Positions 116-40,765 of a stretch of DNA of 64,000 bases are shown piece after piece. A program made the position numbers and the translations under genes. The first letter of the stretch is position 1. Every line of letters begins with the position of its first letter. Below the pieces are notes generated by a model. It was not told the origin of the DNA, did not search any database, and saw only the letters and a program-made list of their open reading frames with translations. The stretch lies in assembly GCA_937873455.1 (NCBI GenBank), contig CALMYG010000043.1:1-64000 (forward strand), read 5' to 3'. The DNA is from an uncultured Verrucomicrobiota bacterium. GTDB lineage: Bacteria > Verrucomicrobiota > Kiritimatiellia > CAIVKH01.

Positions 116-130
116 TTCCATGTCAAGGAA
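116..130. other. Left attachment site of the integrated element
   Basis: TTCCATGTCAAGGAA occurs here, at 12938-12952 and at 25760-25774, exactly 12,822 bp apart. The base before the core is T here and C at the other two sites. The base after it is A here and in the middle but G at the right end. This is the pattern expected if site-specific recombination joined chromosome (left) to element (right) within the core. The core is an imperfect palindrome (TTCC...GGAA) matching a tRNA anticodon stem-loop. Confidence 0.85.
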
Positions 131-647
131 AGGATCACCGCCACGGAATTAGAAGCAATCGAATTCCATTTTGCCCATGTATTCAGGTGAATTCCAGGTG
201 TGACCCGTCCTTGCCCTGATGTCGGAAATTTGATCTGCGACCATTCATGTGACCACTTTTTCCCGAAACTTTCCCTTGCTGGGTTTTGCGGTTCAGGCTG
301 ACACTTACGCCATGTTTTGCGGTTCTCGACAAACGAAGGATGTCTTAAAATATTTCCGATCTTGGGGATTGCCTTCGTTGCGAATCGCGTTCTATGATGA
401 GCACCGCGATGGGTCAATTGTCCCGTCGACTTGTTCTTTACATTTTAGTTTTTGCGTTTTACGCAGAGTCGTTTCACACGAAAACCGCGAACTTTTGATC
501 CATGAAGCGAGACATGCGGAGGCGCGCCCCATCGGGCGCGGCTCCCTGTCTTATGTTTCATGGATGGGGCTTCGCGGTCCCTCGTGTGAGGCATGAGCTA
601 GGAGTTCGCGCCTCTTCTTTTTTGAGGCGCAAATAAAGGAGGATAAA
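131..647. other. Gene-free left end of the element
   Basis: About 520 bp without a convincing gene; open frames on both strands here have no recognisable domain. It holds a possible promoter (TTTACA, 17-base spacer, TACGCA, around 438-466), GC-rich inverted repeats near 520-545, and a hairpin just before the first cargo gene. It probably acts as the leader of the TSP3/Rhs operon and as the left att arm for the integrase. Confidence 0.5.
608..630 (+). terminator. Leader hairpin before cargo operon
   Basis: GCGCCTC and GAGGCGC form a perfect 7-bp stem around a T-rich 9-base loop. It lies 5 bases before the Shine-Dalgarno sequence of the first cargo gene. There is no T tract after it, so an mRNA-leader role is as likely as termination. 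Confidence 0.45.
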
Positions 648-3600
648 ATGAGGAAATTTATTGTTTCGCATGGTCGCCGCTTCGCGGCGCTGATAACCGT
701 GCTCGGTGTATCCGCGATCACGTTGGCGTTTTCAAACGTCGAAAAAACCGAGAGTGATTCCGTCATCAACCCTGACGAATACGAATTCCTGATGTCGTTC
801 AAGGTCGGCGATATTTACGACCTCGAACAATATTTCGTGCTTCATCAATACGATTATCTTCCCATCACGCCGCCCCCGGCGGATTTCATCCTGCAACAGT
901 CCGGCATGCCCGATGTTCTGCCGTTCGATGGCAAGGCGTTTCCTAAAGAATTTATCGCCGGACTTGTCGGCACGTACGAATACAGCGCATTGGTTTATCC
1001 GCTCGTCGTGATCGAGGAGCCGAAAACACGCGAGATAGTTTTCCTCAATTCCGAGGGCAAGGAAATCTACAGTCTTCCGCCCGCGCCGGGTTACGATCCA
1101 TACGCCTACCTCAAAAGCCGTTGGGCGGCCCTGTATTCAGGCAAAGCCTCTTTGCAAGCCGTGAATTATTGGCAAGGGATTTACGATCCCGCCCGCGTTC
1201 AACTGCGGACCAAGTTGATTCCGATTGAGAATGTGGAGCCGTACCTGTTTGCCCAAGCCAAGGTGATGGAGGCCGCCGCTATGATGCAGGAGGAGGATGA
1301 AGGCGGCGGCATGATGATGCTGATGGAGGGCGAATCCGACAGCAACATTGTGTTTACCGCCATTTATAAAACCAACAGCGTGGCCGTCACCATCGCCTAC
1401 CCGGAGGATTTTACCAACCGATTGGATATTTACACCTGCAATGACCTGCTCGCGGAAATATGGTCGTTTGCCGTCCGCGAATTGCCGACCACGGGAACCA
1501 ATCAAATCACCTGGATCGACACGAATGCATGGATTCAGACCGGCTTGCCGGTACGATTTTACGCAGCGGGAAATGCCGATCTGGATACCGACGGCGACGG
1601 CTACGCCGACGCGCGGGAAATCATGGTTTATAAAACCGATCATGAGGACATCGATTCCCACCCGGTCAAAGTGTCCGGCACGGTCAGTTACTCCGGCATC
1701 GAAACCGGTTCGATCTTTGTCGTATGGGTGACCGACTCGAATAGCTGGTCCATTGCCAAATCGATCACGTTGCCCGGCCCCGCCGCCTATACCAACGAAG
1801 AAGTCGGCAACAATGAAAGCTACTGGATCAAGGCGTTTCGCGATGCAAACGGAAACAACACGCTCGACGCGTGGGAGCCGAGGGGAATTTACAGCGACAA
1901 CTCAACCTTGATCACCGGCGATATTTCCGGGGTCAACATTACGATGGCCGATGTTCCGTCGATATGGGGAACCATCGACTACATTGGAAGCGCGACCGGC
2001 GATATCTATGTCATCGCGGTGACGTCCTCGAACAGTTGGGACATGACCTATAAAACCGTCATTCCGTGGTCGCAGGGTGAAACCAACGACCTGGGCGGCG
2101 GCACGTTCTATGTGTCATTTCCCGTCGAGTACACGATCACCGGACTGCCGTCCTCCAATTATTTCATACGCGCGTTTATCGATTCGGACGCAAACGCCAT
2201 GTTCTCGCTGGGCGAAGCGGCGGGACAATACGCCTCCAATGGAATTCCCGTCAGCAACCGTGTGACGGGAATTGATTTTACCCTCGATCTGGATTCCGAC
2301 GGCGATGAGATGCCGGATTGGTGGGAGTGGCAATATGGGTTTGATCCGTTCGACGATGGCGATATGCGTCTTGATCGCGACAACGACGGGGCGGAAAACT
2401 ACAAGGAATTCCTTTTCGGGACGGACCCCGATAATCCCGATACCGACGGCGACGGCATGCCGGACGGTTGGGAAATTCTCTACGGCCTTGCGCCGCTTGA
2501 TCCCGCCGACGCCTTCGGAGATATCGACAACGATGGCTTGAATAATGTGGACGAATATCTTCGCGGCACGTTTCCCGACAACCCTGACAGCGATGGGGAT
2601 TTTATTTCCGATGGAACCAACACGCTGGGAAGCGGAGCGGCGACCATCTACCGTGGACCCGACCCAAATCCGTTGACGCCCGCGCCCGGCAATCTGGCTC
2701 TTCGCTATGTGTCGAAAGCCGGACGTAGCATCGTGGCGAAGGAAGATCGTTACGGTCGCCCGGTCGTGGCGTGGCAGGCCAACGACGATCAGGGCAAGGC
2801 GCAGGTGTACGTGATGCAGTGGTTCGGCGCACCGATGGATGCCAGCCTTGAAAGCTGGGCTGACCTGTCCGGGCGGTGGGAGCAATTCGGAGGTTCGGCC
2901 ATCAATCGCGGGGTAACGGCGGCCACTAACGGAATCTTCAGCTTCGACATGGCGCTGGACCGCGACGATTCCCCGGTCGTTACCTGGGTGGAACAAAGAA
3001 CTCCGCCCGCCCGCGTATATCTCCTCCGGTGGAGCGCGACCAATTGGGTGCAGAATGGAAATTCGTATTCAAGCGGTATCGCCGATGTGTTGGTGAATTC
3101 GTTTTCGGCAAGCACCAAGCAGCACACGAACACGATCGCTATCAATGGTGTGACCAACGGCACGATCTTCTACGCACGGGTGACGAATTGGTTTGATCGT
3201 GTGGCCGTCGCGGTGAACACGCAGAATCAACCGGTGGTCGTTTCGTTGCGTCCGGCGAATCCGACGGCGGTTCAACTTAGGCGGTTTAACGGGACAAATT
3301 GGGTGGGCATTTCCGGGTCCGCCCAAGATTCAGGAATCACCGGCCTCGGCAGTTATTTCAATCCGCAAATCGAAATCGGTCCCGACAATCGACCGGTCGT
3401 GACGTATTGGGACGCCTGGGCCTATTACTGCCGCAAGTGGGACGGTTCATCTTCGTGGCCGAATCTCGGCAGTAACATCGGCGTGGTGGACAACACCCAC
3501 GGCGCGTACGATCTTTGTTCGTTGTCCGTCAACGAGAGCAACATCGTGCATTTCGGCTGGTTGCAGTATCGCGCCCGGATCATGACCAACAACGTCCTGT

Positions 3601-4496
3601 TGCCGCCGAAGCATGGTTTTTGGGTGCGCCGTTTCGTGGGCGGCTCGTGGGCCAATATCGGCTCTTCCGGCTCCGGCATCGGTTTGCACAAGGACATCAC
3701 CAGCGAAATCGATTCCCGCAGTCTCTCGATTTCCTGCCGGGGTACCGGCGAAACGTTGGCGGTGTGGGCGCAATGGACCGGTGCGTCATCGCCGTTCGTT
3801 TTCGCCCGCCGCGCCCAGGGGACGAACTGGTTTGATCTGGGCGGTTCCTACACGAACAACGGCGTTAATTACGCCGGAGCCAGCGTCAACGCGGTCGCCG
3901 GTTTGACTTCATTGGGTTCGCCGATAGCGATCTATGCAGCCCAATGGAGCGGTTCCAATCACAAGTTACAGGCCCGGCAATTTGTGGCGGACAGCGACGG
4001 CGACGGGTTGAGCGATTTATATGAGCAGGCCATCGGCTTGAATCCAAACTCCAGCGATTCGGATAACGACGGCGTTTCCGACTGGGACGAAATATTTCTT
4101 TATGGTACGGACCCTCTTTCAGATGATTCTGATGGCGATGGGTTGCTCGACGGCGAAGAAGTCAACGGCACGAAATGGGGCATTTGGAGCGATCCGCTCA
4201 ACCCCGACACCGACGGCGACGGGATACTTGACGGCTGTGATCCCTATGTCAATTCACCTCAAGGCGATCAAGACGGCGATGGCTTACCCGATGAACTTGA
4301 TCCGGATATCGACAACGACGGAATTTCCAACGACGATGAATTGATCCTCGGCACGAACCCTTACAATCCTGACACCGATTGCGATGGCGTACCTGATGGC
4401 GAGGACGCAGACCCTCTTGACCCCGATACCCAGGGCGCGGACACCACGCCGCCCGTCATCATCATTATAGAACCCGTGGAAGGAGCTTTGCCATGA
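648..4496 (+). CDS. Secreted TSP3-repeat / beta-propeller-like protein
   Basis: A 1282-residue secreted protein. Residues 1-30 form a signal peptide. A Met-rich acidic stretch (about 205-225) precedes a PVC-type segment ending in AAGNADLDTDGDG (about 300-320). Two beta-sandwich-like repeats follow (about 340-540, each with SNSW and an AFRD/AFID turn). Next come calcium-binding thrombospondin type-3 repeats (about 548-660), a propeller-like region of recurring G-x-PVV-x-W strands (about 680-1110), and a second TSP3 block (about 1115-1265). The start is fixed by AAGGAGG six bases upstream. The protein ends abruptly after a TTPPVI motif, which normally opens an Ig-like domain, and its stop overlaps the Rhs start (ATGA). 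A surface or extracellular partner of the Rhs protein is inferred; no enzymatic domain is seen. Confidence 0.88.
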   Translation: MRKFIVSHGRRFAALITVLGVSAITLAFSNVEKTESDSVINPDEYEFLMSFKVGDIYDLEQYFVLHQYDYLPITPPPADFILQQSGMPDVLPFDGKAFPKEFIAGLVGTYEYSALVYPLVVIEEPKTREIVFLNSEGKEIYSLPPAPGYDPYAYLKSRWAALYSGKASLQAVNYWQGIYDPARVQLRTKLIPIENVEPYLFAQAKVMEAAAMMQEEDEGGGMMMLMEGESDSNIVFTAIYKTNSVAVTIAYPEDFTNRLDIYTCNDLLAEIWSFAVRELPTTGTNQITWIDTNAWIQTGLPVRFYAAGNADLDTDGDGYADAREIMVYKTDHEDIDSHPVKVSGTVSYSGIETGSIFVVWVTDSNSWSIAKSITLPGPAAYTNEEVGNNESYWIKAFRDANGNNTLDAWEPRGIYSDNSTLITGDISGVNITMADVPSIWGTIDYIGSATGDIYVIAVTSSNSWDMTYKTVIPWSQGETNDLGGGTFYVSFPVEYTITGLPSSNYFIRAFIDSDANAMFSLGEAAGQYASNGIPVSNRVTGIDFTLDLDSDGDEMPDWWEWQYGFDPFDDGDMRLDRDNDGAENYKEFLFGTDPDNPDTDGDGMPDGWEILYGLAPLDPADAFGDIDNDGLNNVDEYLRGTFPDNPDSDGDFISDGTNTLGSGAATIYRGPDPNPLTPAPGNLALRYVSKAGRSIVAKEDRYGRPVVAWQANDDQGKAQVYVMQWFGAPMDASLESWADLSGRWEQFGGSAINRGVTAATNGIFSFDMALDRDDSPVVTWVEQRTPPARVYLLRWSATNWVQNGNSYSSGIADVLVNSFSASTKQHTNTIAINGVTNGTIFYARVTNWFDRVAVAVNTQNQPVVVSLRPANPTAVQLRRFNGTNWVGISGSAQDSGITGLGSYFNPQIEIGPDNRPVVTYWDAWAYYCRKWDGSSSWPNLGSNIGVVDNTHGAYDLCSLSVNESNIVHFGWLQYRARIMTNNVLLPPKHGFWVRRFVGGSWANIGSSGSGIGLHKDITSEIDSRSLSISCRGTGETLAVWAQWTGASSPFVFARRAQGTNWFDLGGSYTNNGVNYAGASVNAVAGLTSLGSPIAIYAAQWSGSNHKLQARQFVADSDGDGLSDLYEQAIGLNPNSSDSDNDGVSDWDEIFLYGTDPLSDDSDGDGLLDGEEVNGTKWGIWSDPLNPDTDGDGILDGCDPYVNSPQGDQDGDGLPDELDPDIDNDGISNDDELILGTNPYNPDTDCDGVPDGEDADPLDPDTQGADTTPPVIIIIEPVEGALP

Positions 4497-7400
4497 TCGC
4501 GCGTAAATATTTTTCCATTCTCTCGTTTGCACTGTTTGCCATATCCGCGTTCGCCAAAAACGATTGCGACACCTGCAAGCAGACCTCCCTGAAACCGCTC
4601 GACCTTTCCCGCGCACCAAGCCATGAAGAACTGATCTTATCCGGTCAGTTGGGCGGCAATCTCGCTCCCACCGGCCCGGAAAATCGAACTACGCCGGAAG
4701 ACCGTATGGCCTTTGGCCGGGCCATGGACGCCTGGAACCGGCACGATTACAAACGCGCGAAAGTGTTGCTGAAGCAACACGCCGCGCAATTCCGCAACAG
4801 CCCGTGGAAAGCTGAAGCGGAGTTGCATCTAGGCTGCGAAGCGCGGTTTAACGGCCGTTATGCCGAGGCGGAGGATTATTTTACCGCCATCCTCGCCGAG
4901 CATGCCGACAAGCAGGGCACGGCGGACGGCGAAGTCTTGCACCGTGCGGAGTTGCGCCTGGCCATGTTGGAAACCATGCGCGGCGATTTTTCAGCGGCGC
5001 GGGAAAAGTGGGCGGCCATCCTTCGCAACGATCCCGACCGCGCCCGCCGCGACTACGCGCGGCACTGGCTCTATCGTGTCGGACTCTACGAACAGAACGC
5101 GGAGTTTGTGCGGCGATGCGGCACGGAATCCCTTTCCGTTTTGTTGTCCCGCATCGGCGAGGATCAAGCCGCCCGTGAAATCCTGGCCCTGCCCGCGAAT
5201 CCCGACTACGGTTTCCGCGCCGATGAACTGGTCACGCTTGCCCGTGAACACGGCGTGAAATTAAACGGTGTCAGGGCATCGAACACCGATCATCTGCCCA
5301 CGCCCTTTCTCGCCCATTACGACTTCAAACATTTCGTCGCGGTGACCGGGCGGGATGCGGATGGAAATGTCACCGTCTTCGATCCGATCCTGAACCTTGA
5401 AACCGTCATGACCTCGGAGGAGTTTTCGCGCGAGTGGTCCGGTGTCGCACTGGTGCCGAAAGAAAAACGCGGCCTGTTCGCCGGAATCTGGAACGGCGTC
5501 GCCCGGCTTTGGCGCTCCCCTTCGAAAGACGCCCCGCTGTTGCTCGCGATGTCTGCCCTCAAGGAATTTACCGGCGGCTGTTGCGGCATCGAAAACCCCA
5601 ACACCGACGAAGGTGGCAACGTGCCCACGGTCGGCGGCAGTCGTTGTCCCAAATCCGGCAACAAGGGCTTGAGCGGTTGGACCTTCGCGCCGAGCAGCGT
5701 CAATATTTACGCCTCCGACACGCCGCTGTGGTACGAACCGGCCATCGGCCCGGACATCGAATTCACCATGAGTTACAACGCGATTGACGCGGATAACAAC
5801 CTCCCGTCCTTCGGTCCCAAGTGGATGTTTTCCTATCACAGCTACGCCGTGGAGACCCCGGCGGCGGGCAATGGCACGATCACGATCTTCATGCCCGATG
5901 GCCGAAACGACGTGTATTCGCCTATTTCCGGAACCAACACCTTCACGCCTCCGGGCCGGGTGTTCAACCAACTTGTAAAATTGGGAACGAATCAATTCAC
6001 GCTCACCATGCCGGACGGAACCGTTTACCGCTACGGCCAACCGGTCGGCGCGACGAACGTTCAACAGGCATTGCTCACCGCCATCGAAGACCGGCACTCG
6101 AACACGGTGACGCTGGCCTATGACGGCCAGCCCAATCCCAAATTGATCGCGGTGGTGGACGCGCTCTCGCAGACCTCGCGAATTTATTACGGTGGGAGCG
6201 GATTTATCACCAACATCGTGGACCCGTTCGGGCGTGGCACGGTGGTTGTTTATTCCAACAACTATGTCGCCACGGTGCGCGATATGGGCGGGGTCGAGTC
6301 GCGCTACTCGTTTTATACGAACGGGCTTGAAAAAGATTACGTACAGTCCATGCGCACCGATTGCGGCGAGGTGACGTTTACCTATGCGCTGGCTGACGGA
6401 AAGTCCACCGGCACCTGGGACCGGAGCACGTTGACCGCCACCTTTGCCGACGGATCGACGGAAGTCCTGTTTTACAACGGAATCCGAAAAACCTTTTTCA
6501 CTGACCGCAACGGCCACACCGTGGAATACGACATCGGCATTGGTTCCGCGTTTCCGTATCAAGGCCGGATCAACTCCGCGCTTTTCCCGGACGGAAACTC
6601 GGCGGCCTTCAAATACAACGCCGCGTTGCAGGTGACCAACATCACCGACGAGGCCAATCAGAACTGGCGGTATGCGTACAACGATCAAGGCCGTCTGACT
6701 GCATTGCAAATGCCGAACAATTACCGGTTGGATTTCGCCTACACCAACGGCGGGTTCGATCTCGCAAAAGTGACCGAAGCGACCAGCATTGTGGTGGCCG
6801 CGATTTCCTACACGTCAAAACGCGATGTGGAAACCGTGACCAACGCGCTCAACGAAGCCACATATTTTGCCTACGATAATTTGGGACGCCTGACCAACAT
6901 CGTGGATGCCTTGAATATCGAAACCGTGCTGGCCTACGGCCCGAACCAATGGCTGGCCAGTGTTTCCCGTGCCGGATTCACCTTGGCGACGTATCAGCAG
7001 GACGCCATCGGTCGCGTAACGAACGTGATCGGGCCGGAGAATATTTCCGCCGGGATTTCCTACGATGATCTGAATCGGCTCACCAGCTTGAATTTCGGCG
7101 ACGGCCAGCCTTATCGCTGGATCTACGAAACCAACAGCCTGTTGCGAACCTCCATGTCCGACCGCACCGGTCGCCGGGCCAAATTTGAGTACGATGCCCT
7201 GGAACGCACCAAGCGCGTCTGGTTGCCCGACAACAGTTTTGTCAGTTTCGATTACGATTCCGCCGACAACCTTACCGCCCTGTTGGACGGCAAGGGAAAC
7301 CGGACCCGGTTTGCGCGGGATTCTCGCGACCGGCTCACGCAGAAAACCTATCCGTTGGGCGATACCGTTTCTATGACGTATGACCAACGCGGATTGCCCA

Positions 7401-9511
7401 TAACCCACACCGGCGGGCGAGGCTTTATTTCCACCCTCAAATACGATGCCGCCGGTTTGCTGACCAACGTCAGTTATTCCGCGACCAACACGCCCGGTGT
7501 TCGTTACGGGTACAACAGTCGCAATTTGCTCGTCAGCATGGCCGATGGCTGGTCCACCAATACCCTTCGTTATGATGATTTAGGCCGTCTTACCAACATG
7601 CTGGAAGTCTTCGGCGCCAGCACGCAGACGTGGAACTACGCCTTTGATCCCATCGGCAGAATGACCGCCCTGACATGGCGCATCACCGGCAACACAAACT
7701 TGTTCAGGGTGTCGTACGGCTTGGATGAACTCGGCCGCGTCACCAACGTGACCGGCGATGTCGGCAGTTTCAATTACGCCTACACCAACGCGGGGTTGCA
7801 GGTGTCGCAACTCGTTTATCCGAACGGTGAAACCGCGAATTATTTTTACGACGCCATCGGGCGAATGACCAATCTGGTTTATTCCACCGGCGAATCGTGG
7901 AGTTATGATTTCGATTCCCGCGATTTTGTGACCCGTTGCGTCGATCCCACGAATAACGTGTTTACTTACGCCTACGACGAAGCCGGGCGATTAATCGAGG
8001 CGAGGGGCGTCAAGGGAACCAATATTGTTTCCGGTTATCCGTTCCACTACGATTACGACCGCGCGGGCAACCGGATCAAACAAACCGAAGGGCAGAAACA
8101 GCGGGAACTGCTCTACAACGCCAACAACCAGTTGACCCGCTCCGGGCGCACGAACATCTTGAGCGTACGCGGTTATGTCAATGAACCGGGTTCGTTGGTG
8201 TCCGTGCGCACCAGCGCGTTCACGAACTGGGTTCCCGCGACGACTCGATTCATCAGCCACACCCAGGCATATTACGAGGCGCACAACGTGCGCACGGCGA
8301 CGAATCTGTCGCTGGTGACGAATACGGTGTTTGTTCGCGCCACCGATCCGGCGGGCAACACGTCCACCAGCACGGTCAAGGTAGTCACCACTGGTCCGGC
8401 ATCCACGAGGTTTTATGCGTCCGATGCCGACGGCAATCAGACCTTTTTCCAAGAGGGACTCAATCTGCGCACCCTGACGTGGGACGCCGAGAATCGCTTG
8501 ATTCGCGTTGACTACACGAACGGCAGCAGCCGGTTTCGTTACGACGGCTGGGGACGACTGCGGGAAATCGCCGAGCATAACTCCGTCGGGACATTGACCA
8601 GTTTGGTGCGCTACGCGTGGAACGGGTATCTGCCGTGGGCGGAGTTAAATTCCACCAACGGCGTGATTCGCACCTTCACGTGGGGGCTTGATGTGTCCGG
8701 CACCGTAGGCGGCGCGGGCGGCATCGGCGGACTGGTGGGTATCCGCAGTTACATTCCGGGGACGAACTATTTTGTCCGCTCCAACGGTCGCGGAAACGTG
8801 ACCGAAGTGAGGCGTACCAACGGCGCGGTGGTCGCGAATTATTCCTATGCTCCGTACGGCCAACTGCTGACCGACACCGGGTCTTACAGCCAGCCGTTCC
8901 GGTTCCAGACAAAACTTTATCATGGCAGGTCGGGCTACACCGCGTGGCCGTTGAGATGGTACGATCCGCAGGCGGGCAGGTGGTTGAGTCGTGATTTAAT
9001 AGGTGAGGATGGAGGGATTAACCTCTTTCAGCACGTTGGAAGTAATCCGATCAACCTTATCGATCCTGATGGCCGCTTTATACTGGAATTTGCTTTGGGC
9101 GCGGCGGCAGTATATGGAATTGTAGATAGTGCTCTTAAGTTGTATAATGCGTGGCTTGACTACAAACAGGCCGAGCTAGCCAGTGATTATTACTCAGACG
9201 CGCTATCGGCCAATGATTTCGAGCGTGCAGAGAAATGCAGGAGTGAAATGATATCACTAAGCGCAGATATGGCCGCGAATATTATTCAGGGTGTTCCGGG
9301 AACAAGTATTACGGGAATGCCCCCCGGCGCTGGTCCTAAGTCGCCCGATTTTATGGAGGCTGGTCCATCGAGCTACCAACTAGGTAGGCCCGGCTACAAT
9401 AGAGTAAAAGGCTACACACGTGATGACGGCACGCATGTTCCTTCATACTATCGGCGTTCAGAGGGTTCAACCGCGCCATATCCAGAAAATGATGCAATTC
9501 GGGGTCGATAG
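4493..9511 (+). CDS. C39-peptidase/Rhs (YD-repeat) protein with variable C-terminal tip
   Basis: A 1672-residue protein. Residues 1-21 are a signal peptide and 60-200 a TPR-like helical segment. A papain-like C39-type peptidase domain follows, with candidate triad Cys209 (CGTESL), His280 (HFVAV) and Asp297 (FDP). Roughly residues 380-1480 are YD repeats, closed by the Rhs-associated core (RWYDPQAGRWLSRD to NPINLIDPDG, ending near 1526). The last ~146 residues are an unrelated tip: a long hydrophobic helix, a Gly/Pro stretch, then GYTRDDGTHVPSYYRR. In Rhs proteins the YD shell encloses a toxin released by proteolysis, so C39 cleavage of this protein or a partner is plausible but inferred. GGAAGGAG precedes the start; the ATGA overlap implies translational coupling. 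The tip's DNA is visibly more AT-rich than the core. Confidence 0.9.
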   Translation: MIARKYFSILSFALFAISAFAKNDCDTCKQTSLKPLDLSRAPSHEELILSGQLGGNLAPTGPENRTTPEDRMAFGRAMDAWNRHDYKRAKVLLKQHAAQFRNSPWKAEAELHLGCEARFNGRYAEAEDYFTAILAEHADKQGTADGEVLHRAELRLAMLETMRGDFSAAREKWAAILRNDPDRARRDYARHWLYRVGLYEQNAEFVRRCGTESLSVLLSRIGEDQAAREILALPANPDYGFRADELVTLAREHGVKLNGVRASNTDHLPTPFLAHYDFKHFVAVTGRDADGNVTVFDPILNLETVMTSEEFSREWSGVALVPKEKRGLFAGIWNGVARLWRSPSKDAPLLLAMSALKEFTGGCCGIENPNTDEGGNVPTVGGSRCPKSGNKGLSGWTFAPSSVNIYASDTPLWYEPAIGPDIEFTMSYNAIDADNNLPSFGPKWMFSYHSYAVETPAAGNGTITIFMPDGRNDVYSPISGTNTFTPPGRVFNQLVKLGTNQFTLTMPDGTVYRYGQPVGATNVQQALLTAIEDRHSNTVTLAYDGQPNPKLIAVVDALSQTSRIYYGGSGFITNIVDPFGRGTVVVYSNNYVATVRDMGGVESRYSFYTNGLEKDYVQSMRTDCGEVTFTYALADGKSTGTWDRSTLTATFADGSTEVLFYNGIRKTFFTDRNGHTVEYDIGIGSAFPYQGRINSALFPDGNSAAFKYNAALQVTNITDEANQNWRYAYNDQGRLTALQMPNNYRLDFAYTNGGFDLAKVTEATSIVVAAISYTSKRDVETVTNALNEATYFAYDNLGRLTNIVDALNIETVLAYGPNQWLASVSRAGFTLATYQQDAIGRVTNVIGPENISAGISYDDLNRLTSLNFGDGQPYRWIYETNSLLRTSMSDRTGRRAKFEYDALERTKRVWLPDNSFVSFDYDSADNLTALLDGKGNRTRFARDSRDRLTQKTYPLGDTVSMTYDQRGLPITHTGGRGFISTLKYDAAGLLTNVSYSATNTPGVRYGYNSRNLLVSMADGWSTNTLRYDDLGRLTNMLEVFGASTQTWNYAFDPIGRMTALTWRITGNTNLFRVSYGLDELGRVTNVTGDVGSFNYAYTNAGLQVSQLVYPNGETANYFYDAIGRMTNLVYSTGESWSYDFDSRDFVTRCVDPTNNVFTYAYDEAGRLIEARGVKGTNIVSGYPFHYDYDRAGNRIKQTEGQKQRELLYNANNQLTRSGRTNILSVRGYVNEPGSLVSVRTSAFTNWVPATTRFISHTQAYYEAHNVRTATNLSLVTNTVFVRATDPAGNTSTSTVKVVTTGPASTRFYASDADGNQTFFQEGLNLRTLTWDAENRLIRVDYTNGSSRFRYDGWGRLREIAEHNSVGTLTSLVRYAWNGYLPWAELNSTNGVIRTFTWGLDVSGTVGGAGGIGGLVGIRSYIPGTNYFVRSNGRGNVTEVRRTNGAVVANYSYAPYGQLLTDTGSYSQPFRFQTKLYHGRSGYTAWPLRWYDPQAGRWLSRDLIGEDGGINLFQHVGSNPINLIDPDGRFILEFALGAAAVYGIVDSALKLYNAWLDYKQAELASDYYSDALSANDFERAEKCRSEMISLSADMAANIIQGVPGTSITGMPPGAGPKSPDFMEAGPSSYQLGRPGYNRVKGYTRDDGTHVPSYYRRSEGSTAPYPENDAIRGR

Positions 9512-9513
9512 TA

Positions 9514-9888
9514 ATGATGATGGCCAACGAGAACAGTTCTAATCTCAATTCTATAAGACGGCGTTATGGAAGAAGGCGAATTGTGTATTCCATCATCATT
9601 GGATTAATGGTGCTCAGGTTGTTTACTCATGGATACCGCCTTGTTTCGGCTGTTCAATATGAGCGTGGAGTTTTCGATTATAGGCAGGCTGTTTCAATGT
9701 TTGTTGGCGGCGGTATAAACAAAGCTCGCTGTTATCCTGGTCATCTTGTGGAGTTTGCCCATTCGTATGTTTTGGGCCTTGTCGAAATTCTACTTCTTAC
9801 TGTACTTCTCTTGGCTGTCAGAGGGAATTTTCGATGCTATGCTTTGTTGTTGGCCGAACACACGAGAAATCAGGATGTCGCCTCATAG
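9514..9888 (+). CDS. Small membrane protein, candidate immunity protein
   Basis: A 124-residue protein starting two bases after the Rhs stop (three consecutive ATG codons). A basic N-terminus is followed by one hydrophobic helix near residues 25-45 and another near 88-108. No family is recognised. The position directly behind a polymorphic-toxin tip, the membrane topology and an AT-rich composition shared with the tip fit an immunity protein; that is inference from context. The 3' end overlaps the next small gene. Confidence 0.6.
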   Translation: MMMANENSSNLNSIRRRYGRRRIVYSIIIGLMVLRLFTHGYRLVSAVQYERGVFDYRQAVSMFVGGGINKARCYPGHLVEFAHSYVLGLVEILLLTVLLLAVRGNFRCYALLLAEHTRNQDVAS

Positions 9889-10069
9889 TGGAATCCTTCC
9901 ACGGCTGATCCGCTTCGCAACCGGTTTTTTCCTTGGGGGATTGATCGGTTATTATTTCTTCCTGAGGTCTCACAGTGTGTTGAACTCATCATTTCAACCG
10001 CTCTTGATGCACATATTTGTTCCTGGTGTGGCATTCGGATTATTATTCGTAGTGTCACGAAACGAATGA
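9875..10069 (+). CDS. Small two-helix membrane protein
   Basis: A 64-residue frame (MSPHSGILPRLIRF...) overlapping the previous gene by 14 bases, as expected for coupled translation. It has two hydrophobic segments (about 12-28 and 44-60) around a short polar loop. The same frame is open upstream to 9746, but that part lies wholly inside the previous gene and is probably not translated. It could be a second immunity component. It could also be the out-of-frame 3' part of one longer gene broken by a frameshift near 9880, since both pieces are membrane proteins. Confidence 0.5.
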   Translation: MSPHSGILPRLIRFATGFFLGGLIGYYFFLRSHSVLNSSFQPLLMHIFVPGVAFGLLFVVSRNE

Positions 10070-10454
10070 TGCCCGAAGTTGCCGAAAAGTTTAACATCGC
10101 CGATGACAACGGCATGCTTCGTGATGTGATCTTCAACCTCAGATCGGAGCGAGCCGGGCCTCGGGAAAGCCCCAACCCCCGACCCCCGGCCTGTCACGGC
10201 ATCTGCTGTCGCACATGCCGCGCCAGTCCGCCCCGAAGACCCCACGCCCCTCCGCGCATCACGCGCTCTTGCCCTCACTCGCTTGGGGCTCGTTCGGTCA
10301 AGCCCGCGTCATGCGCTCCGCCCCCAGCGGACCACGCGAAGCGCGTGGCAAGCTCGCTACGCTCGACGCGCGCGCCCGCAGGAGCCGCGCCAGTCGGTAC
10401 TCGTCGAAGCGTCGAGAACCGCCTGTCACGCCTCCTGCTACACCCCCACGCCGA

Positions 10455-10559
10455 AACAAAAGCCACATTATGCGTCCGTTCGTCGAAGACTCCTCACACG
10501 TCGCGGGAATCCCTCGGCTTCGCCGTTTCCCGCGTCGTCGCATAATGTGCTCTTTTGTT
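10455..10559. repeat. Interrupted inverted repeat with nested hairpin
   Basis: The left arm 10455-10474 (AACAAAAGCCACATTATGCG) and right arm 10539-10559 pair almost perfectly, with one extra base in the right arm. Inside, CGCGGGAA (10502-10509) and TTCCCGCG (10527-10534) form a second, nested hairpin with a short GGCTTCGCC tip. Nested cruciform architecture of this kind is typical of sites acted on as single strands. Confidence 0.7.
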
Positions 10560-10804
10560 CCGGCGCCACCCGGCGCGCGCTGAAAGGCGCTTCGCTTAGC
10601 GTCCCCCTTGGGCCGTAGCCCCCGGCCTGGGGGCTGGCCCGTTGGTCGGGCCGGTCACACGGCTCGGCGCACCTCGCACGTGCCCGGCCCTCCGCGGACC
10701 TCGGCTATCGCCGAGTTCAATAAAATAGCCCCGGCACCCATCGCGCCCATGTGCGCAAAGCCGCCCATGGTCACGCTGGCTGCTCGCACCCCGAAGATCT
10801 GCGG

Positions 10805-10857
10805 ACACTTTTTCCTTTCGCCGCCGAAGATGGTGGGGCGGCGAAAGAAAAAAGTGT
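10805..10857. terminator. Strong bidirectional hairpin (terminator-like)
   Basis: Arms 10805-10825 and 10837-10857 form a 21-bp stem with a single mismatch and an 11-base loop. The stem has A/T-rich bases, so on either strand a U-rich run follows the GC-rich GGCGGCGAAAG core, with TTTTT after the right arm. It lies downstream of the leftward zinc-ribbon gene and could end that transcript. Confidence 0.6.
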
Positions 10858-10861
10858 TTTT

Positions 10862-10908
10862 GTCCAATGGTTGGAAAAGTGCCGGTGAAAAAGTTCCAAT
10901 CATTGGAA
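10862..10908. repeat. Composite palindrome (15-17-15)
   Basis: GTCCAATGGTTGGAA (10862-10876), a 17-base spacer, then TTCCAATCATTGGAA (10894-10908). The same architecture and near-same palindromes recur at 43977-44023 inside a coding gene. This looks like a dispersed palindromic element family. Confidence 0.75.
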
Positions 10909-10911
10909 ATG

Positions 10912-11175
10912 TCAGCGCGGCGTGTCGTATTCGTCGTTGCGCCAGGTCAAACCGATGCCCTTTGATTCGACGGACTGCACCCAGCCGCAAGCCGGACACC
11001 ACACCACGCGCAACGGTAAACGCAGTTCGGAAAAATACGCGCCGCGCGGCGGCGCGACCGCTTCAAAGGAAACCGAATCGCTGGGAATCTTCCGGTTACG
11101 CACAAGCGCGGTGTGACACGCGGGACATGTTCCGAGATTTGCGTTGTCGTCGCTCATATCGTCCCGCTGTGTCAC
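10912..11175 (-). CDS. Small zinc-ribbon protein
   Basis: An 87-residue leftward protein with two CPAC knuckles (about residues 17-20 and 60-63) separated by some 40 residues, the layout of a four-cysteine zinc ribbon. It starts at a GTG overlapping the stop of the XRE gene (GTGA); an ATG six codons later is an alternative. Its cotranslation with the repressor suggests a regulatory or DNA/protein-binding accessory role. No family name can be given. Confidence 0.72.
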   Translation of the reverse strand: MTQRDDMSDDNANLGTCPACHTALVRNRKIPSDSVSFEAVAPPRGAYFSELRLPLRVVWCPACGWVQSVESKGIGLTWRNDEYDTPR

Positions 11176-11597
11176 GGACGATTTTTAAGCACCGAGTCGA
11201 GCAGTTCGGTCAAAAACTTTTGTTTGGATTTCGGCAGTTTGCGGATTTCCTCCAACTGCCGTTCAAGTGTCGCCGGAGGTCCAGGTCGTTTGCGCGGAGC
11301 GCGCGTGTCCGCGCGCCCAATCAAATCCGATACGGAGACCTTGAGCAGATCAGCGGCTTTTTCGATGAACTCCAAGGTCGGGTTTTTCGCCCGGCTTTCG
11401 TAGTACGCGATCATGCTCCGGGTCATGCCGAGCTTGTCGGCCAGTTCCTGCTGGGACAGGCCGCGGCGTTCACGCGCGGCGGCCAGCCGTTGTCCGAACG
11501 GCGGCGCTTCTTTCATGGGTGGTCTTCCTGCCATGTCGCCAGCATACGGCATGGTTTTGTTTTTTTGTCTCATCTCGGGTTTTTTGCTTGTCTGCAT
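11172..11597 (-). CDS. XRE/Cro-CI family transcriptional regulator
   Basis: A 141-residue frame with a classic helix-turn-helix of the Cro/CI class (FGQRLAAARERRGLSQQEL...GMTRSMIAYYESRAKNPTLEFIEKAADLL, about residues 34-90) and a basic, helical C-terminal tail. The longest start abuts the operator; internal Met codons at residues 16, 22 and 28 are equally possible, and the conserved domain begins only after them. It is divergent from the integrase and shares an AT-rich control region with it, as expected of the lysogeny-type repressor of an integrative element. It is cotranslated with the zinc-ribbon gene. Confidence 0.9.
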   Translation of the reverse strand: MQTSKKPEMRQKNKTMPYAGDMAGRPPMKEAPPFGQRLAAARERRGLSQQELADKLGMTRSMIAYYESRAKNPTLEFIEKAADLLKVSVSDLIGRADTRAPRKRPGPPATLERQLEEIRKLPKSKQKFLTELLDSVLKNRP

Positions 11598-11640
11598 TGT
11601 TAATTATAGTTAACAATATGGCGTGAGGTTAACAATAACC
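11597..11640. promoter_or_regulatory. Operator/promoter between repressor and integrase
   Basis: TTGTTAA (11597-11603), a 6-base spacer and TTAACAA (11610-11616) form a perfect inverted repeat; a further half-site pair GTTAACAATAAC lies at 11629-11640. On the minus strand TATAAT (11608-11603) lies inside the first operator, so a bound regulator would block its own promoter. Autoregulation by the adjacent XRE protein is inferred from position and symmetry. Confidence 0.72.
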
Positions 11641-11665
11641 ATTTTTGCGAGCCTCCGAACTTGAC

Positions 11666-12799
11666 ATGATCACCCGCCGACACAGCTTGAGCCGCGACCC
11701 CCGGACCGGGATTTTCTACGCCAAAATCCAGGTCGATAAGATCCGTCGCCGGTTCACCTTCGGCAAGAATCGCAAGGCGGCGGAATCGGCATTGCGAAAA
11801 CTCGAACGGGAACTGGTGACCGGTGAAATGTCTTTCTGCGAACAGCCGACCGCTCCGACGGCTCCGCCGGAAACGGGACTGTTGTTGTCGGAGTTGATCG
11901 CAAAACATCTGGAATGGGTGCTGAACAACCGAAGCCGGGGAACCTACGAGGTGCGCCGCCACTTTCTGACCGGCTTCAAAAAGTTCACCGGGGAATGTCC
12001 GGTCAACCGGATCGACCGGATCACGCTGGAAAACTTCGTCGCCTGGGCGCGTAAGCATCACGCCAAAAGCGGTAACGGCGGGGTGGCTTATCTGCGCCAT
12101 GTGAAAACGATGTTTTTGTGGGCGGATGAAGTCGGGTTGTGTCCGTGTCCGGTTCGGCGTTTTCCCCGAGCGACCGAGGCGGCCGCACCGACCCGGCGTT
12201 TTACCGATGACGAGTTGGAAAAGTTGTTCCGGCAGGTGTCATCCGGGTTCAAGGACTTTCGGGACATGGTGTACTTCGGCCTGTTGACCGGCTTGAGGCC
12301 GCAGGAGTTGCGTCAATTACAGCGCGATCACATCTTGCGCGACAGCGAGGGTAACTTTTTCGTGATGATCCAGGAGCACAAGACGGCGAGGACAGCCCGT
12401 CAACCGATGGGGCGAAGTGTGCCGTTGACCGACGAGGCGGCGGAAATCGTCCGGCGTCAACTACACGCGCACACGTCGTCTTCGTTTGTGTTCTTGAACG
12501 CGGATAGCAAGCCGTACAAGGCGCACACCTTCCGTCAACGTTTTATGCGTTGGTGTAAACGCGCCGAAGTCGCTCCGCGTCCGCCGTACGCGTTGCGTCA
12601 TACGTTCGGCAGCATGGAAGCCGAGGCGAACATCAACCAGACCAGCTTGAGCCAGTTAATGGGGCATACCACGATCCGCACCACCGCCCGTTACATCTCC
12701 AACAATTACGATCATCACCGCAACGCCATCGGCGCGATTGTTGGCCGCGTAAAAACGCTCACCGGCCCCACGCTCACCGTGCTCGACAAGACCGCGTAA
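11666..12799 (+). CDS. Tyrosine-type site-specific recombinase (element integrase)
   Basis: A 377-residue integrase from the ATG at 11666 (a TTG seven codons upstream keeps the frame open). It has an N-terminal AP2-like arm-binding segment, a core-binding SAM-like domain (about 85-165), and a catalytic domain with Arg in TGLRPQEL, the YxxRH variant YALRHTFGS (Tyr replacing the usual His of HxxR), LMGHTTIRTTARY and the nucleophilic Tyr in ARYIS. It is the last gene before the att site, as usual for integrases, and should catalyse integration and excision at the anticodon-loop att core. Expression is likely controlled by the operator upstream. Confidence 0.94.
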   Translation: MITRRHSLSRDPRTGIFYAKIQVDKIRRRFTFGKNRKAAESALRKLERELVTGEMSFCEQPTAPTAPPETGLLLSELIAKHLEWVLNNRSRGTYEVRRHFLTGFKKFTGECPVNRIDRITLENFVAWARKHHAKSGNGGVAYLRHVKTMFLWADEVGLCPCPVRRFPRATEAAAPTRRFTDDELEKLFRQVSSGFKDFRDMVYFGLLTGLRPQELRQLQRDHILRDSEGNFFVMIQEHKTARTARQPMGRSVPLTDEAAEIVRRQLHAHTSSSFVFLNADSKPYKAHTFRQRFMRWCKRAEVAPRPPYALRHTFGSMEAEANINQTSLSQLMGHTTIRTTARYISNNYDHHRNAIGAIVGRVKTLTGPTLTVLDKTA

Positions 12800-12880
12800 T
12801 CACGCGGCCACTTTGTGACCAAATCCCGTCCGAAAATCCGCCCGACCGGGCGCAAGTGGTCACATGCCAAAATAAAGAAA

Positions 12881-12899
12881 CCCCTTGATAATCAAGGGG
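12881..12899 (-). terminator. Terminator carried with the tRNA 3' half
   Basis: CCCCTTGA/TCAAGGGG form an 8-bp stem with a 3-base loop. Read on the minus strand it is followed by TTTCTTTATTTT and lies just downstream of the tRNA-Val 3' half, so it is the tRNA terminator captured by the element. It may also stop the integrase transcript. Confidence 0.75.
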
Positions 12900-12903
12900 A
12901 AAA

Positions 12904-12952
12904 TGGTGGGCGATACAGGACTCGAACCTGTGACCTCTTCCATGTCAAGGAA
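12904..12952 (-). other. tRNA-Val(GAC) 3' half at the element junction
   Basis: The minus strand reads anticodon loop TTGACAT (anticodon GAC), a GGAAG anticodon-stem strand, a complete T arm, the 3' acceptor strand ATCGCCC, discriminator A and CCA. Its 3' region differs at two positions from the intact tRNA-Val at 40689-40765. There is no acceptor 5' strand or D arm upstream, so it is not a functional tRNA. It is the attP arm that would restore a split tRNA-Val. Confidence 0.85.
12938..12952. other. Central att core between the two element copies
   Basis: TTCCATGTCAAGGAA with element-type bases on both sides, that is, an intact attP-like junction. Recombination between it and either outer site would excise one copy as a circle. 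Confidence 0.85.
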
Positions 12953-13469
12953 AGGATCACCGCCACGGAATTAGAAGCAATCGAATTCCATTTTGCCCAT
13001 GTATTCAGGTGAATTCCAGGTGTGACCCGTCCTTGCCCTGATGTCGGAAATTTGATCTGCGACCATTCATGTGACCACTTTTTCCCGAAACTTTCCCTTG
13101 CTGGGTTTTGCGGTTCAGGCTGACACTTACGCCATGTTTTGCGGTTCTCGACAAACGAAGGATGTCTTAAAATATTTCCGATCTTGGGGATTGCCTTCGT
13201 TGCGAATCGCGTTCTATGATGAGCACCGCGATGGGTCAATTGTCCCGTCGACTTGTTCTTTACATTTTAGTTTTTGCGTTTTACGCAGAGTCGTTTCACA
13301 CGAAAACCGCGAACTTTTGATCCATGAAGCGAGACATGCGGAGGCGCGCCCCATCGGGCGCGGCTCCCTGTCTTATGTTTCATGGATGGGGCTTCGCGGT
13401 CCCTCGTGTGAGGCATGAGCTAGGAGTTCGCGCCTCTTCTTTTTTGAGGCGCAAATAAAGGAGGATAAA
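12953..13469. other. Gene-free left end, copy 2
   Basis: Identical to 131-647: leader of the cargo operon with a possible promoter, GC-rich inverted repeats and the 7-bp stem hairpin (13430-13452). No gene is seen. Confidence 0.5.
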
Positions 13470-16400
13470 ATGAGGAAATTTATTGTTTCGCATGGTCGCC
13501 GCTTCGCGGCGCTGATAACCGTGCTCGGTGTATCCGCGATCACGTTGGCGTTTTCAAACGTCGAAAAAACCGAGAGTGATTCCGTCATCAACCCTGACGA
13601 ATACGAATTCCTGATGTCGTTCAAGGTCGGCGATATTTACGACCTCGAACAATATTTCGTGCTTCATCAATACGATTATCTTCCCATCACGCCGCCCCCG
13701 GCGGATTTCATCCTGCAACAGTCCGGCATGCCCGATGTTCTGCCGTTCGATGGCAAGGCGTTTCCTAAAGAATTTATCGCCGGACTTGTCGGCACGTACG
13801 AATACAGCGCATTGGTTTATCCGCTCGTCGTGATCGAGGAGCCGAAAACACGCGAGATAGTTTTCCTCAATTCCGAGGGCAAGGAAATCTACAGTCTTCC
13901 GCCCGCGCCGGGTTACGATCCATACGCCTACCTCAAAAGCCGTTGGGCGGCCCTGTATTCAGGCAAAGCCTCTTTGCAAGCCGTGAATTATTGGCAAGGG
14001 ATTTACGATCCCGCCCGCGTTCAACTGCGGACCAAGTTGATTCCGATTGAGAATGTGGAGCCGTACCTGTTTGCCCAAGCCAAGGTGATGGAGGCCGCCG
14101 CTATGATGCAGGAGGAGGATGAAGGCGGCGGCATGATGATGCTGATGGAGGGCGAATCCGACAGCAACATTGTGTTTACCGCCATTTATAAAACCAACAG
14201 CGTGGCCGTCACCATCGCCTACCCGGAGGATTTTACCAACCGATTGGATATTTACACCTGCAATGACCTGCTCGCGGAAATATGGTCGTTTGCCGTCCGC
14301 GAATTGCCGACCACGGGAACCAATCAAATCACCTGGATCGACACGAATGCATGGATTCAGACCGGCTTGCCGGTACGATTTTACGCAGCGGGAAATGCCG
14401 ATCTGGATACCGACGGCGACGGCTACGCCGACGCGCGGGAAATCATGGTTTATAAAACCGATCATGAGGACATCGATTCCCACCCGGTCAAAGTGTCCGG
14501 CACGGTCAGTTACTCCGGCATCGAAACCGGTTCGATCTTTGTCGTATGGGTGACCGACTCGAATAGCTGGTCCATTGCCAAATCGATCACGTTGCCCGGC
14601 CCCGCCGCCTATACCAACGAAGAAGTCGGCAACAATGAAAGCTACTGGATCAAGGCGTTTCGCGATGCAAACGGAAACAACACGCTCGACGCGTGGGAGC
14701 CGAGGGGAATTTACAGCGACAACTCAACCTTGATCACCGGCGATATTTCCGGGGTCAACATTACGATGGCCGATGTTCCGTCGATATGGGGAACCATCGA
14801 CTACATTGGAAGCGCGACCGGCGATATCTATGTCATCGCGGTGACGTCCTCGAACAGTTGGGACATGACCTATAAAACCGTCATTCCGTGGTCGCAGGGT
14901 GAAACCAACGACCTGGGCGGCGGCACGTTCTATGTGTCATTTCCCGTCGAGTACACGATCACCGGACTGCCGTCCTCCAATTATTTCATACGCGCGTTTA
15001 TCGATTCGGACGCAAACGCCATGTTCTCGCTGGGCGAAGCGGCGGGACAATACGCCTCCAATGGAATTCCCGTCAGCAACCGTGTGACGGGAATTGATTT
15101 TACCCTCGATCTGGATTCCGACGGCGATGAGATGCCGGATTGGTGGGAGTGGCAATATGGGTTTGATCCGTTCGACGATGGCGATATGCGTCTTGATCGC
15201 GACAACGACGGGGCGGAAAACTACAAGGAATTCCTTTTCGGGACGGACCCCGATAATCCCGATACCGACGGCGACGGCATGCCGGACGGTTGGGAAATTC
15301 TCTACGGCCTTGCGCCGCTTGATCCCGCCGACGCCTTCGGAGATATCGACAACGATGGCTTGAATAATGTGGACGAATATCTTCGCGGCACGTTTCCCGA
15401 CAACCCTGACAGCGATGGGGATTTTATTTCCGATGGAACCAACACGCTGGGAAGCGGAGCGGCGACCATCTACCGTGGACCCGACCCAAATCCGTTGACG
15501 CCCGCGCCCGGCAATCTGGCTCTTCGCTATGTGTCGAAAGCCGGACGTAGCATCGTGGCGAAGGAAGATCGTTACGGTCGCCCGGTCGTGGCGTGGCAGG
15601 CCAACGACGATCAGGGCAAGGCGCAGGTGTACGTGATGCAGTGGTTCGGCGCACCGATGGATGCCAGCCTTGAAAGCTGGGCTGACCTGTCCGGGCGGTG
15701 GGAGCAATTCGGAGGTTCGGCCATCAATCGCGGGGTAACGGCGGCCACTAACGGAATCTTCAGCTTCGACATGGCGCTGGACCGCGACGATTCCCCGGTC
15801 GTTACCTGGGTGGAACAAAGAACTCCGCCCGCCCGCGTATATCTCCTCCGGTGGAGCGCGACCAATTGGGTGCAGAATGGAAATTCGTATTCAAGCGGTA
15901 TCGCCGATGTGTTGGTGAATTCGTTTTCGGCAAGCACCAAGCAGCACACGAACACGATCGCTATCAATGGTGTGACCAACGGCACGATCTTCTACGCACG
16001 GGTGACGAATTGGTTTGATCGTGTGGCCGTCGCGGTGAACACGCAGAATCAACCGGTGGTCGTTTCGTTGCGTCCGGCGAATCCGACGGCGGTTCAACTT
16101 AGGCGGTTTAACGGGACAAATTGGGTGGGCATTTCCGGGTCCGCCCAAGATTCAGGAATCACCGGCCTCGGCAGTTATTTCAATCCGCAAATCGAAATCG
16201 GTCCCGACAATCGACCGGTCGTGACGTATTGGGACGCCTGGGCCTATTACTGCCGCAAGTGGGACGGTTCATCTTCGTGGCCGAATCTCGGCAGTAACAT
16301 CGGCGTGGTGGACAACACCCACGGCGCGTACGATCTTTGTTCGTTGTCCGTCAACGAGAGCAACATCGTGCATTTCGGCTGGTTGCAGTATCGCGCCCGG

Positions 16401-22333: not shown

Positions 22334-22335
22334 TA

Positions 22336-22710: not shown

Positions 22711-22891
22711 TGGAATCCTTCCACGGCTGATCCGCTTCGCAACCGGTTTTTTCCTTGGGGGATTGATCGGTTATTATTTCTTCCTGAGGTCTCACAGTGT
22801 GTTGAACTCATCATTTCAACCGCTCTTGATGCACATATTTGTTCCTGGTGTGGCATTCGGATTATTATTCGTAGTGTCACGAAACGAATGA
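22697..22891 (+). CDS. Small two-helix membrane protein (copy 2)
   Basis: Identical to 9875-10069: 64 residues overlapping the preceding gene by 14 bases. The overlap is the same in both copies, so if it is really a frameshift it predates the duplication. Confidence 0.5.
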   Translation: MSPHSGILPRLIRFATGFFLGGLIGYYFFLRSHSVLNSSFQPLLMHIFVPGVAFGLLFVVSRNE

Positions 22892-24462: not shown

Positions 24463-24487
24463 ATTTTTGCGAGCCTCCGAACTTGAC

Positions 24488-25721: not shown

Positions 25722-25725
25722 AAAA

Positions 25726-40688: not shown

Positions 40689-40765
<77 letters not shown>

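Follow-up and report, generated by a model that had tools for sequence, protein, structure and literature searches.

What do four closely packed genes near the start of a contig from an uncultured Kiritimatiellia bacterium encode, and how would their products act together? The genes lie at 648-10069 of the window, by which we mean the stretch of 64,000 nucleotides (nt) that was analysed (contig CALMYG010000043.1 of GenBank assembly GCA_937873455.1, phylum Verrucomicrobiota, forward strand). A sequence-only reading had proposed an undescribed exported two-partner effector system made of a surface-type protein with TSP3 repeats and a propeller (gene 1), an Rhs protein with a C39-like peptidase domain (gene 2), and two small membrane proteins (genes 3 and 4). 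That interpretation was partly supported by our analysis. We favor, with a probability of about 60%, a polymorphic Rhs toxin that is secreted and whose targeting subunit is encoded by a gene of its own, the whole residing on an integrative element. Established at the level of sequence are the order and domains of the genes, the swapping of the partner module, of the tip and of the genes behind it among relatives, and the occurrence, in one of these relatives, of a nuclease tip together with the matching immunity family. More tentatively, at just short of even odds, the locus would belong to a two-gene class of Verrucomicrobiota Rhs proteins in which an exchangeable surface binder (lectin-like propeller, LamG, beta-helix or RCC1) is joined to a shell with an exchangeable tip, the last residues of the partner forming strand A of an immunoglobulin (Ig)-like domain whose strands B-G reside in the Rhs protein. 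The relevant features are as follows.

648-4496, forward: gene 1, the partner protein, 1282 amino acids (aa), with a hydrophobic N-terminus, TSP3 repeats, a propeller, further TSP3 repeats and a C-terminal tail.
2730-3980, forward: predicted propeller of gene 1 (about residues 695-1111), of PLL/PHL-lectin-like fold according to strand pattern, Foldseek and structure-model alignment.
4440-4493, forward: C-terminal tail of gene 1, DTTPPVIIIIEPVEGALP, the proposed donor strand, aligned with three relatives.
4493-9511, forward: gene 2, the Rhs protein, 1672 aa, with a signal-peptide-like N-terminus, a TPR-like region, the C39 domain, RHS repeats, the Ig insert, the core and the tip.
5114-5467, forward: C39-like domain, with Cys209, His280 and Asp297 invariant in seven sequences.
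8162-8392, forward: Ig-like insert between RHS repeats (residues 1224-1300), the proposed acceptor, apparently beginning at strand B.
8846-9073, forward: Rhs_assc_core (E 1.3e-18, residues 1452-1527), ending in PINLIDPDG (pattern PxxxxDPxG).
9074-9508, forward: variable C-terminal tip, G+C (GC) content 0.498, of no family, starting with a hydrophobic segment (residues 1530-1548).
9514-9888, forward: gene 3, a small membrane protein of 124 aa and candidate immunity protein, starting 2 nt past the Rhs stop.
9875-10069, forward: gene 4, a small membrane protein of 64 aa, overlapping the end of gene 3, with its start re-assigned to the ATG at 9875.

The open reading frames (ORFs) at 648-4496, 4493-9511 and 9514-9888 and that of gene 4 overlap or are nearly adjacent, as the sequence-only reading had described, and the coupling of gene 1 to the Rhs gene through ATGA was confirmed as a 4-nt overlap. 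For gene 4, the ATG at 9875 is a more likely start than the TTG at 9746. Genes 3 and 4 each encode one strong hydrophobic segment, in agreement with their description as membrane proteins. The product of gene 1 matched TSP3_bac in six stretches (E 3e-14) and has a hydrophobic N-terminal segment at residues 13-31 that was judged by eye to be a signal peptide. In VIA, a structure model of its middle region reached Z scores of about 25 with PLL/PHL lectins and of 26 with CylK, other propellers scoring only slightly less, and the best Foldseek E-value was 1.8e-9; the model of the whole of gene 1 was weak (mean predicted local distance difference test score, pLDDT, 38), with blocks within the propeller ranging from 26 to 85. 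These models support a propeller of PLL/PHL-lectin type in the middle of gene 1. The fold is held in common with the PLL/PHL lectins of the PDB, whereas identity to them is 11-14% and sugar binding by gene 1 is only putative.

In gene 2, Pfam reported Peptidase_C39 at residues 208-325 (E 6.4e-15), and the domain was aligned to the ComA peptidase, in which the roles of the catalytic residues are known and the oxyanion Gln lies six residues before the Cys. At that position, all seven sequences have an invariant Ala (Ala203). The domain keeps the Cys, His and Asp, with Ala in place of the Gln, and its protease activity is only putative. The N-terminus of gene 2 looks signal-peptide-like by eye; its hydrophobicity falls below the threshold used. 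Of the proposed exported two-partner system with a built-in protease, the two-protein, secreted-type unit and the presence of a C39 domain were supported. Farther along the chain, RHS/YD repeats (RHS_repeat, E 1.7e-47, 11 stretches) and the Rhs-associated core occur together, the combination by which an Rhs polymorphic toxin is recognized. The reported boundary motif is PxxxxDPxGL (PMC8636562); the motif at the core end fits PxxxxDPxG, the usual next L is replaced by R, and an earlier DPxG-like motif reads DLIG.

Relatives of the pair (designated by L numbers) were sought through the C39-type N-terminus. Matches that cover most of this region occurred in 5 of 345 genomes of the class, the window's own included; a first search had given matches of any extent in 9 of 146 genomes. 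A named genome collection contributed nine loci; two of them (L044, L045) are contigs of a single Verrucomicrobia metagenome-assembled genome, and the others belong to the genomes already found. The hosts are labelled Kiritimatiellia, Lentisphaerae, Verrucomicrobia or uncultured bacteria, the nearest named relative (81% in the Rhs N-terminus) being of the same family and placing the window's genome probably in Kiritimatiellia, and the viral contigs searched held no relative of this N-terminus. Rhs cores as such were present in 47 of the 58 Kiritimatiellia genomes searched. The gene pair described for the window recurred: a TSP3-repeat gene lies directly before the Rhs gene in 9/9 C39-type relatives with a readable upstream side (L023-L029, L044, L045; partly by eye). 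The 4-nt overlap is found in eleven pairs (window, L023, L024, L025, L026, L028, L094, L096, L097, L104 and L107), and in the remaining pairs the genes lie slightly apart or overlap slightly, by an extent that varies with the choice of start codon.

Comparison of these loci indicates that relatives retain the pair and swap three parts: the middle module of the partner, the tip of the Rhs protein, and the downstream genes. The propeller region could be aligned in the window, L038 (= L023), L039 (= L024) and L046 (= L025). Other partners have LamG plus beta-helix (L026, L027), LamG (L035, contig C19 of the window's own genome), pectinesterase/beta-helix (L102), PMP/beta-helix (L095), RCC1 repeats (L045) or TSP3 alone (L097) in that place. 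The tips of the window, L024, L025, L027 and L029 differ on one scaffold, and only that of L024 has a useful Pfam match, an AHH nuclease (E 1.7e-12) that is followed by Imm11 (E 2.6e-11); the scaffold is therefore that of a polymorphic toxin. AHH and Imm11 are paired in the same published listing (PMC3482391). The GC content decreases stepwise, from the body through the tip to the genes that follow, in the window (0.578/0.498/0.441), L024 (0.560/0.469/0.444), L025 (0.565/0.482/0.447) and L029 (0.549/0.487/0.481), with tip boundaries set by hand and downstream genes taken from these four loci, none being included for L027. Same-length pieces of the window's gene 1 and Rhs body were never as low (0/2658 and 0/2619). 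Such a fall is the pattern of co-acquired tip-immunity cassettes and supports joint movement of the tip and small genes. Their proposed covariation is supported among relatives by the GC drop in four loci and the AHH-Imm11 combination; for the window's own scaffold, a second copy with a different tip cassette was not found. The hydrophobic start of the tip and the membrane-protein candidates for immunity would fit a membrane-acting toxin, the toxicity of the tip and the immunity role of genes 3 and 4 both being candidate functions. Weak matches to the tip (E 1e-4 to 6e-3) in 9 other genomes of the 288 searched were regarded as chance, the seven loci read showing no Rhs gene by eye, and a weak match to gene 3 (E 0.009) in 1 other genome of the 288 was disregarded.

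How, then, would the two large proteins be joined? In most pairs a short hydrophobic strand and a Pro close the partner soon after the final repeats, as in PPVIIIIEPVEGALP (window), PVITVISPLEGVAL (L029), PPVITITFPTVGVTPL (L044) and AITIYFPRFGNNHP (L035), among others; the partners of L107 and L108 have the tail, and the TSP3 motif is absent from them by regular expression. Many tails of Rhs-adjacent partners resemble, by eye, strand A of an Ig domain. Compared with Pfam, for which they are too short, the tails gave TSP3-type or other sub-threshold matches or nothing. The Ig-like insert lies between RHS repeats, shortly upstream of the core, and mostly starts 7-9 residues past an NQL-like RHS motif. 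When 17 inserts taken from DNA references were compared, together with the 45 residues before each, with PF09136 (length 83, E <= 0.1), ten matched and nine of the ten began at profile position 16-22 (L174 at 16; L024 and L029 at 18; L102 and L103 at 19; L107 and L108 at 20; L044 at 21; L045 at 22), four of them (L102, L044, L045, L174) passing the curated cut-off. Two single-chain Ig domains, one in a TSP3 gene of the window's own genome (contig C22, L216) and one in L218, matched from position 1; in the C22 gene a tail-like sequence runs straight into the full-length Ig domain (profile 1-82). An AlphaFold2 model of the insert from seven sequences (pLDDT 78) was aligned with glucodextranase 1ug9 from about residue 31 (66 residues, root-mean-square deviation 1.9) at Z 7.9, a value within the unspecific range of the tool. 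The A2 profile gave at best E 0.32 against PDB sequences (beta-lactamases). From these comparisons we infer docking by strand complementation. In chaperone-usher pili an Ig domain without one strand is likewise completed by a strand of another protein; the pilins lack strand G, whereas the strand missing in the proposed joint is A and would come from the end of the partner.

Tail and insert tend to occur together. Among loci found through the N-terminus, the insert was detected by hidden Markov model (HMM) in 17 of 18 Rhs proteins whose partner is tailed and whose sequence can be read at the site of the insert (window, L024, L025, L027, L029, L030, L044, L045, L094, L095, L098, L100, L102, L103, L104, L107, L108 and L109), L095 having it by eye only (HMM E 32); this count is a description and no test, because 16 of those inserts seeded the HMM. 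Seven further pairs have the tail with an Rhs gene cut before the insert (L023, L026, L028, L035, L096, L097, L105), and no insert was detected at E <= 0.1 in five Rhs ORFs that lack a tailed partner (L099, L101, two in L106, L036). We then have a survey of 75 of the Rhs cores listed, in open frames of at least 1271 aa, from which the loci already fetched were excluded (window twice, C192, L027, L029, L107) and in which the insert HMM was iterated on all loci; nine of the 75 had no usable upstream gene. The insert was present in 11/17 loci whose partner ends within 60 aa after TSP3 repeats vs 7/49 with another upstream ORF (Fisher p 1.7e-4), and this p value is optimistic since the loci are related and no phylogenetic correction was made. 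Inserts seen by eye that fail the HMM (L116, L120, L123, L145, L168) were counted as misses. The insert is missing from two Rhs proteins (L172, L176) that, by eye, contain TSP3 repeats of their own. In the window's own genome, where loci were available for 30 of 79 TSP3 matches and 17 further genes had a readable end, the tail is missing from 16/16 TSP3 genes without an Rhs neighbour and is present in two of three Rhs-adjacent ones (the window's, on contig C43, and that on C19); the third (C192, L036) has no tail, and its Rhs gene has no insert. On contig C9 (L034) an insert is visible by eye in a sequence that stops inside it; L034 and L037 do not figure in the HMM results, probably owing to the earlier removal of duplicates.

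Some related arrangements were also seen. In L111, L116, L120, L123 and L145, TSP3 partners ending in DHPDxEL plus a strand precede Rhs proteins of 1773-2370 aa; in all but one of the five the insert does not pass the HMM. Insert-bearing Rhs genes of L146, L161 and L119 adjoin small upstream proteins (166-222 aa) without TSP3 motifs. The partners of L137, L141 and L144 (1305-1340 aa, located directly before 3.2-kaa Rhs genes) have as C-terminus, by eye, a lone dockerin-like EF-hand repeat, RADVNGDGRINGDDVVAVEEGMP, which may be a different way of docking. An earlier, loose regular expression for the tail also matched 47/148 unrelated ORF ends and was rejected.

Several observations weigh against the toxin-plus-targeting-subunit reading or its joint, in addition to the relatedness of the survey loci. 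Toxicity, binding and secretion of the pair are matters that we infer from sequence. The window tip has no Pfam family at a useful E-value and no convincing relative; genes 3 and 4 have no convincing relatives outside their own genome (gene 4 by family libraries only); and the tip of L027 (genome G065) is barely lower in GC than its body (0.615 to 0.598). The window's own insert matched PF09136 weakly (E 0.014) and over positions 52-80 only, and seven of the 17 inserts gave no match (L025, L027, L030, L094, L098, L100, L104; L030 and L100 match Big_13). Some non-Rhs hits of PF09136 also start at 19, so a late start on its own proves little. The insert model had no Foldseek match in the PDB at E <= 0.001, and sulfite dehydrogenase, first among its structural alignments (Z 8.2), ranked about equal to 1ug9. 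Seven survey inserts stand beside partners without TSP3 ends (L119, L130, L136, L146, L157, L161, L162); the ORF before the L157 Rhs gene is probably that gene's own interrupted 5' end. With the loose tail expression, p for the association was 0.066 under the strict cut-off for inserts, and 0.005 and 0.0002 when the cut-off was relaxed.

Much of this would also be seen if the tail were a sorting or chaperone signal that makes no contact with the Rhs protein, the insert folding alone and the two co-occurring by shared descent of one clade of pairs. The shortness of the tail, the recurrence of related families in the survey (L115, L124, L134, L138 and L150 look like one group) and the inserts without a TSP3-ended partner are all compatible with this account, which we nevertheless consider unlikely: within one genome, the TSP3 genes without an Rhs neighbour all end otherwise, C43 and C19 are tailed and C192 lacks tail and insert alike, and the C22 gene places a similar sequence directly before a full-length Ig domain. 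Less probable still is an adhesin pair that is no weapon, with an inert or decayed stub as tip and genes 3 and 4 as chance passengers. The want of a family or convincing relative for the tip and for gene 3 speaks for it; the tip, however, is open and shares its low GC with genes 3 and 4, as in three relatives, and the same scaffold bears, in a relative, a nuclease together with an immunity gene. A Tc (ABC)-like toxin, with gene 1 in the role of TcB, is very improbable, even though the partner has a propeller, the Rhs protein is TcC-like, and the plug of Tc toxins is another, propeller-containing protein (PMC8636562). Pfam matches at E <= 1 in genes 1 and 2 include no SpvB, TcA or Tc mid domain, all RHS repeats lie within gene 2, and other partners by Pfam have LamG, beta-helix or TSP3 alone.

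If the pair is a secreted toxin with a separate targeting subunit, it may work in the following way. Both proteins would be exported from the cytoplasm through signal peptides, and the propeller of the partner (LamG or beta-helix in relatives) would bind a surface ligand. The C-terminal strand of the partner would complete the Ig insert by strand donation, tethering the Rhs protein. The shell of the latter would enclose the tip and release it by cleavage at the DPxG motif, in the manner described for other Rhs proteins (PMC8636562). The tip would then act on or across the membrane of a neighbour cell, and the membrane proteins of genes 3 and 4 would protect the producer. The C39 domain might process one of the two proteins or gate release.

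Rhs toxins are best known with a type VI secretion system (T6SS) or Tc carrier. As the sequence-only reading had said, no VgrG, PAAR or Tc domain was among the Pfam matches of the eight window proteins scanned. T6SS delivery of gene 2 is unlikely because the genome (assembly 93% complete) has no sheath protein VipB, for which an E. coli control was positive. The T6SS-linked Rhs1 of P. laumondii has in common with gene 2 the RHS shell, the PxxxxDPxG boundary, a variable tip and an Ig-like domain; in Rhs1 that domain belongs to the N-terminal plug of the same chain and a PAAR/EagR N-terminus loads the T6SS (PMC8636562), whereas gene 2 has a signal-peptide-like N-terminus, a C39 domain and an Ig insert late in the shell. 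With the TcB-TcC proteins of Tc/ABC toxins (PMC8636562, PMC3482391) the window shares an arrangement of two proteins, a propeller and a TcC-like Rhs; in contrast, SpvB/TcB domains were absent from genes 1 and 2 (Pfam E <= 1; TcA elsewhere in the genome was not sought), and partners of relatives carry LamG, beta-helix or RCC1. Bacterial teneurin-like proteins resemble it in polymorphic tips, downstream immunity genes and variable N-terminal adhesion domains, but unite FN-plug, NHL and YD-shell in one protein (PMC13018210); gene 2 has no Pfam match to NHL. They are reported from six phyla, a set that does not include Verrucomicrobiota (PMC13018210). Described plugs comprise an Ig-like domain (T6SS Rhs), a separate propeller protein (Tc) and Ig-like domains plus a propeller (teneurins) (PMC8636562), to which the present arrangement would add a further solution. 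By the features tested, the window's Rhs protein is a predicted member of the Rhs polymorphic toxins and neither a T6SS Rhs nor a Tc toxin. These toxins being well known, "undescribed system" holds in part; a separately encoded TSP3/lectin-type partner and the split-Ig connection were not found described in the literature searched, from which subscription journals were mostly absent. One large protein of the PVC superphylum is reported to combine Rhs and TSP3 domains (PMC12057145).

That a mobile element carries the unit was borne out by the presence of a tyrosine integrase; a tandem duplication had been missed. The 12,822-bp element is present twice in perfect tandem over 116-25774 (116-12952 equals 12938-25774 without difference). 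A 15-bp att-like core, TTCCATGTCAAGGAA, has three forward and no reverse copies in the 4.1-Mb assembly (control 0). Besides genes 1-4, the element and its second copy contain the following.

116-130, forward: att-like core TTCCATGTCAAGGAA at the left end of the first copy, where the exact repeat ends; further copies at 12938-12952 and 25760-25774.
10912-11175, reverse: small Cys-rich ORF with zinc-ribbon-type Pfam matches only, all sub-threshold.
11172-11597, reverse: helix-turn-helix (HTH) regulator, with phage RstR as nearest model, below cut-off.
11645-12799, forward: tyrosine integrase (Phage_integrase, Pfam E 4.4e-24).
12904-12952, reverse: tRNA-Val(GAC)-like 3' fragment carried by the element, 45/50 bases equal to the chromosomal tRNA-Val at 40689.
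12938-25774, forward: second, identical element copy, with gene 1 at 13470-17318, Rhs at 17315-22333, gene 3 at 22336-22710 and integrase at 24467-25621.

The regulator scored 71.9 bits against the RstR model (cut-off 80); RstR is the repressor of a phage known for integrating in tandem. PADLOC matched the regulator to generic HTH models only and the Rhs protein to one sub-threshold model. Each unit has the tRNA-Val(GAC)-like 3' fragment beside the integrase, an arrangement resembling that of elements whose attachment site lies in a tRNA anticodon arm; neither flank here consists of this tRNA-Val, so the present location may be a secondary integration site. Rfam reported nothing in positions 1-26500 other than a cut tRNA at the contig start. 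A search with the right flank in nine genomes, including the window's own, yielded no readable empty integration site; outside the own genome, one match fell at 161-351 (G002) and all others lay deeper than 1 kb into the flank. The duplication might be an assembly product of a chromosomal copy and an excised circle, with no true array, which we rate at somewhat below even. The perfect identity over 12.8 kb in an assembly of 197 contigs favors such an origin, as does the left flank of only 115 bases, with the contig starting inside a tRNA; the middle junction at 12938 would still be of attP type, as made by excision or array formation. Between gene 4 and the regulator (10070-10900), short ORFs overlap in all frames and the DNA has a non-coding look by eye. 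An integrase-like ORF (by eye) follows the toxin pair of genome G092 (L029:7222-8655), so other copies are possibly mobile too. Elsewhere in the window, tandem repeats of 99 bp (50297-50707, 4.2 copies, overlapping the end of a tRNA-Pro gene) and 96 bp (60367-60635, 2.8 copies) were noted.

In sum, the locus is real and mobile and encodes a candidate Rhs toxin of secreted type whose partner is unusual; the split-Ig joint is the part worth testing. If the proposal is correct, Kiritimatiellia would deploy secreted Rhs toxins whose targeting is left to separate binding proteins, and the toxin would be modular, exchangeable at three points and held together by a defined non-covalent joint. That joint would be a short, readable sequence, the end of gene 1 binding a defined insert of gene 2, and it points to where the function of the TSP3 proteins of these genomes may be sought.

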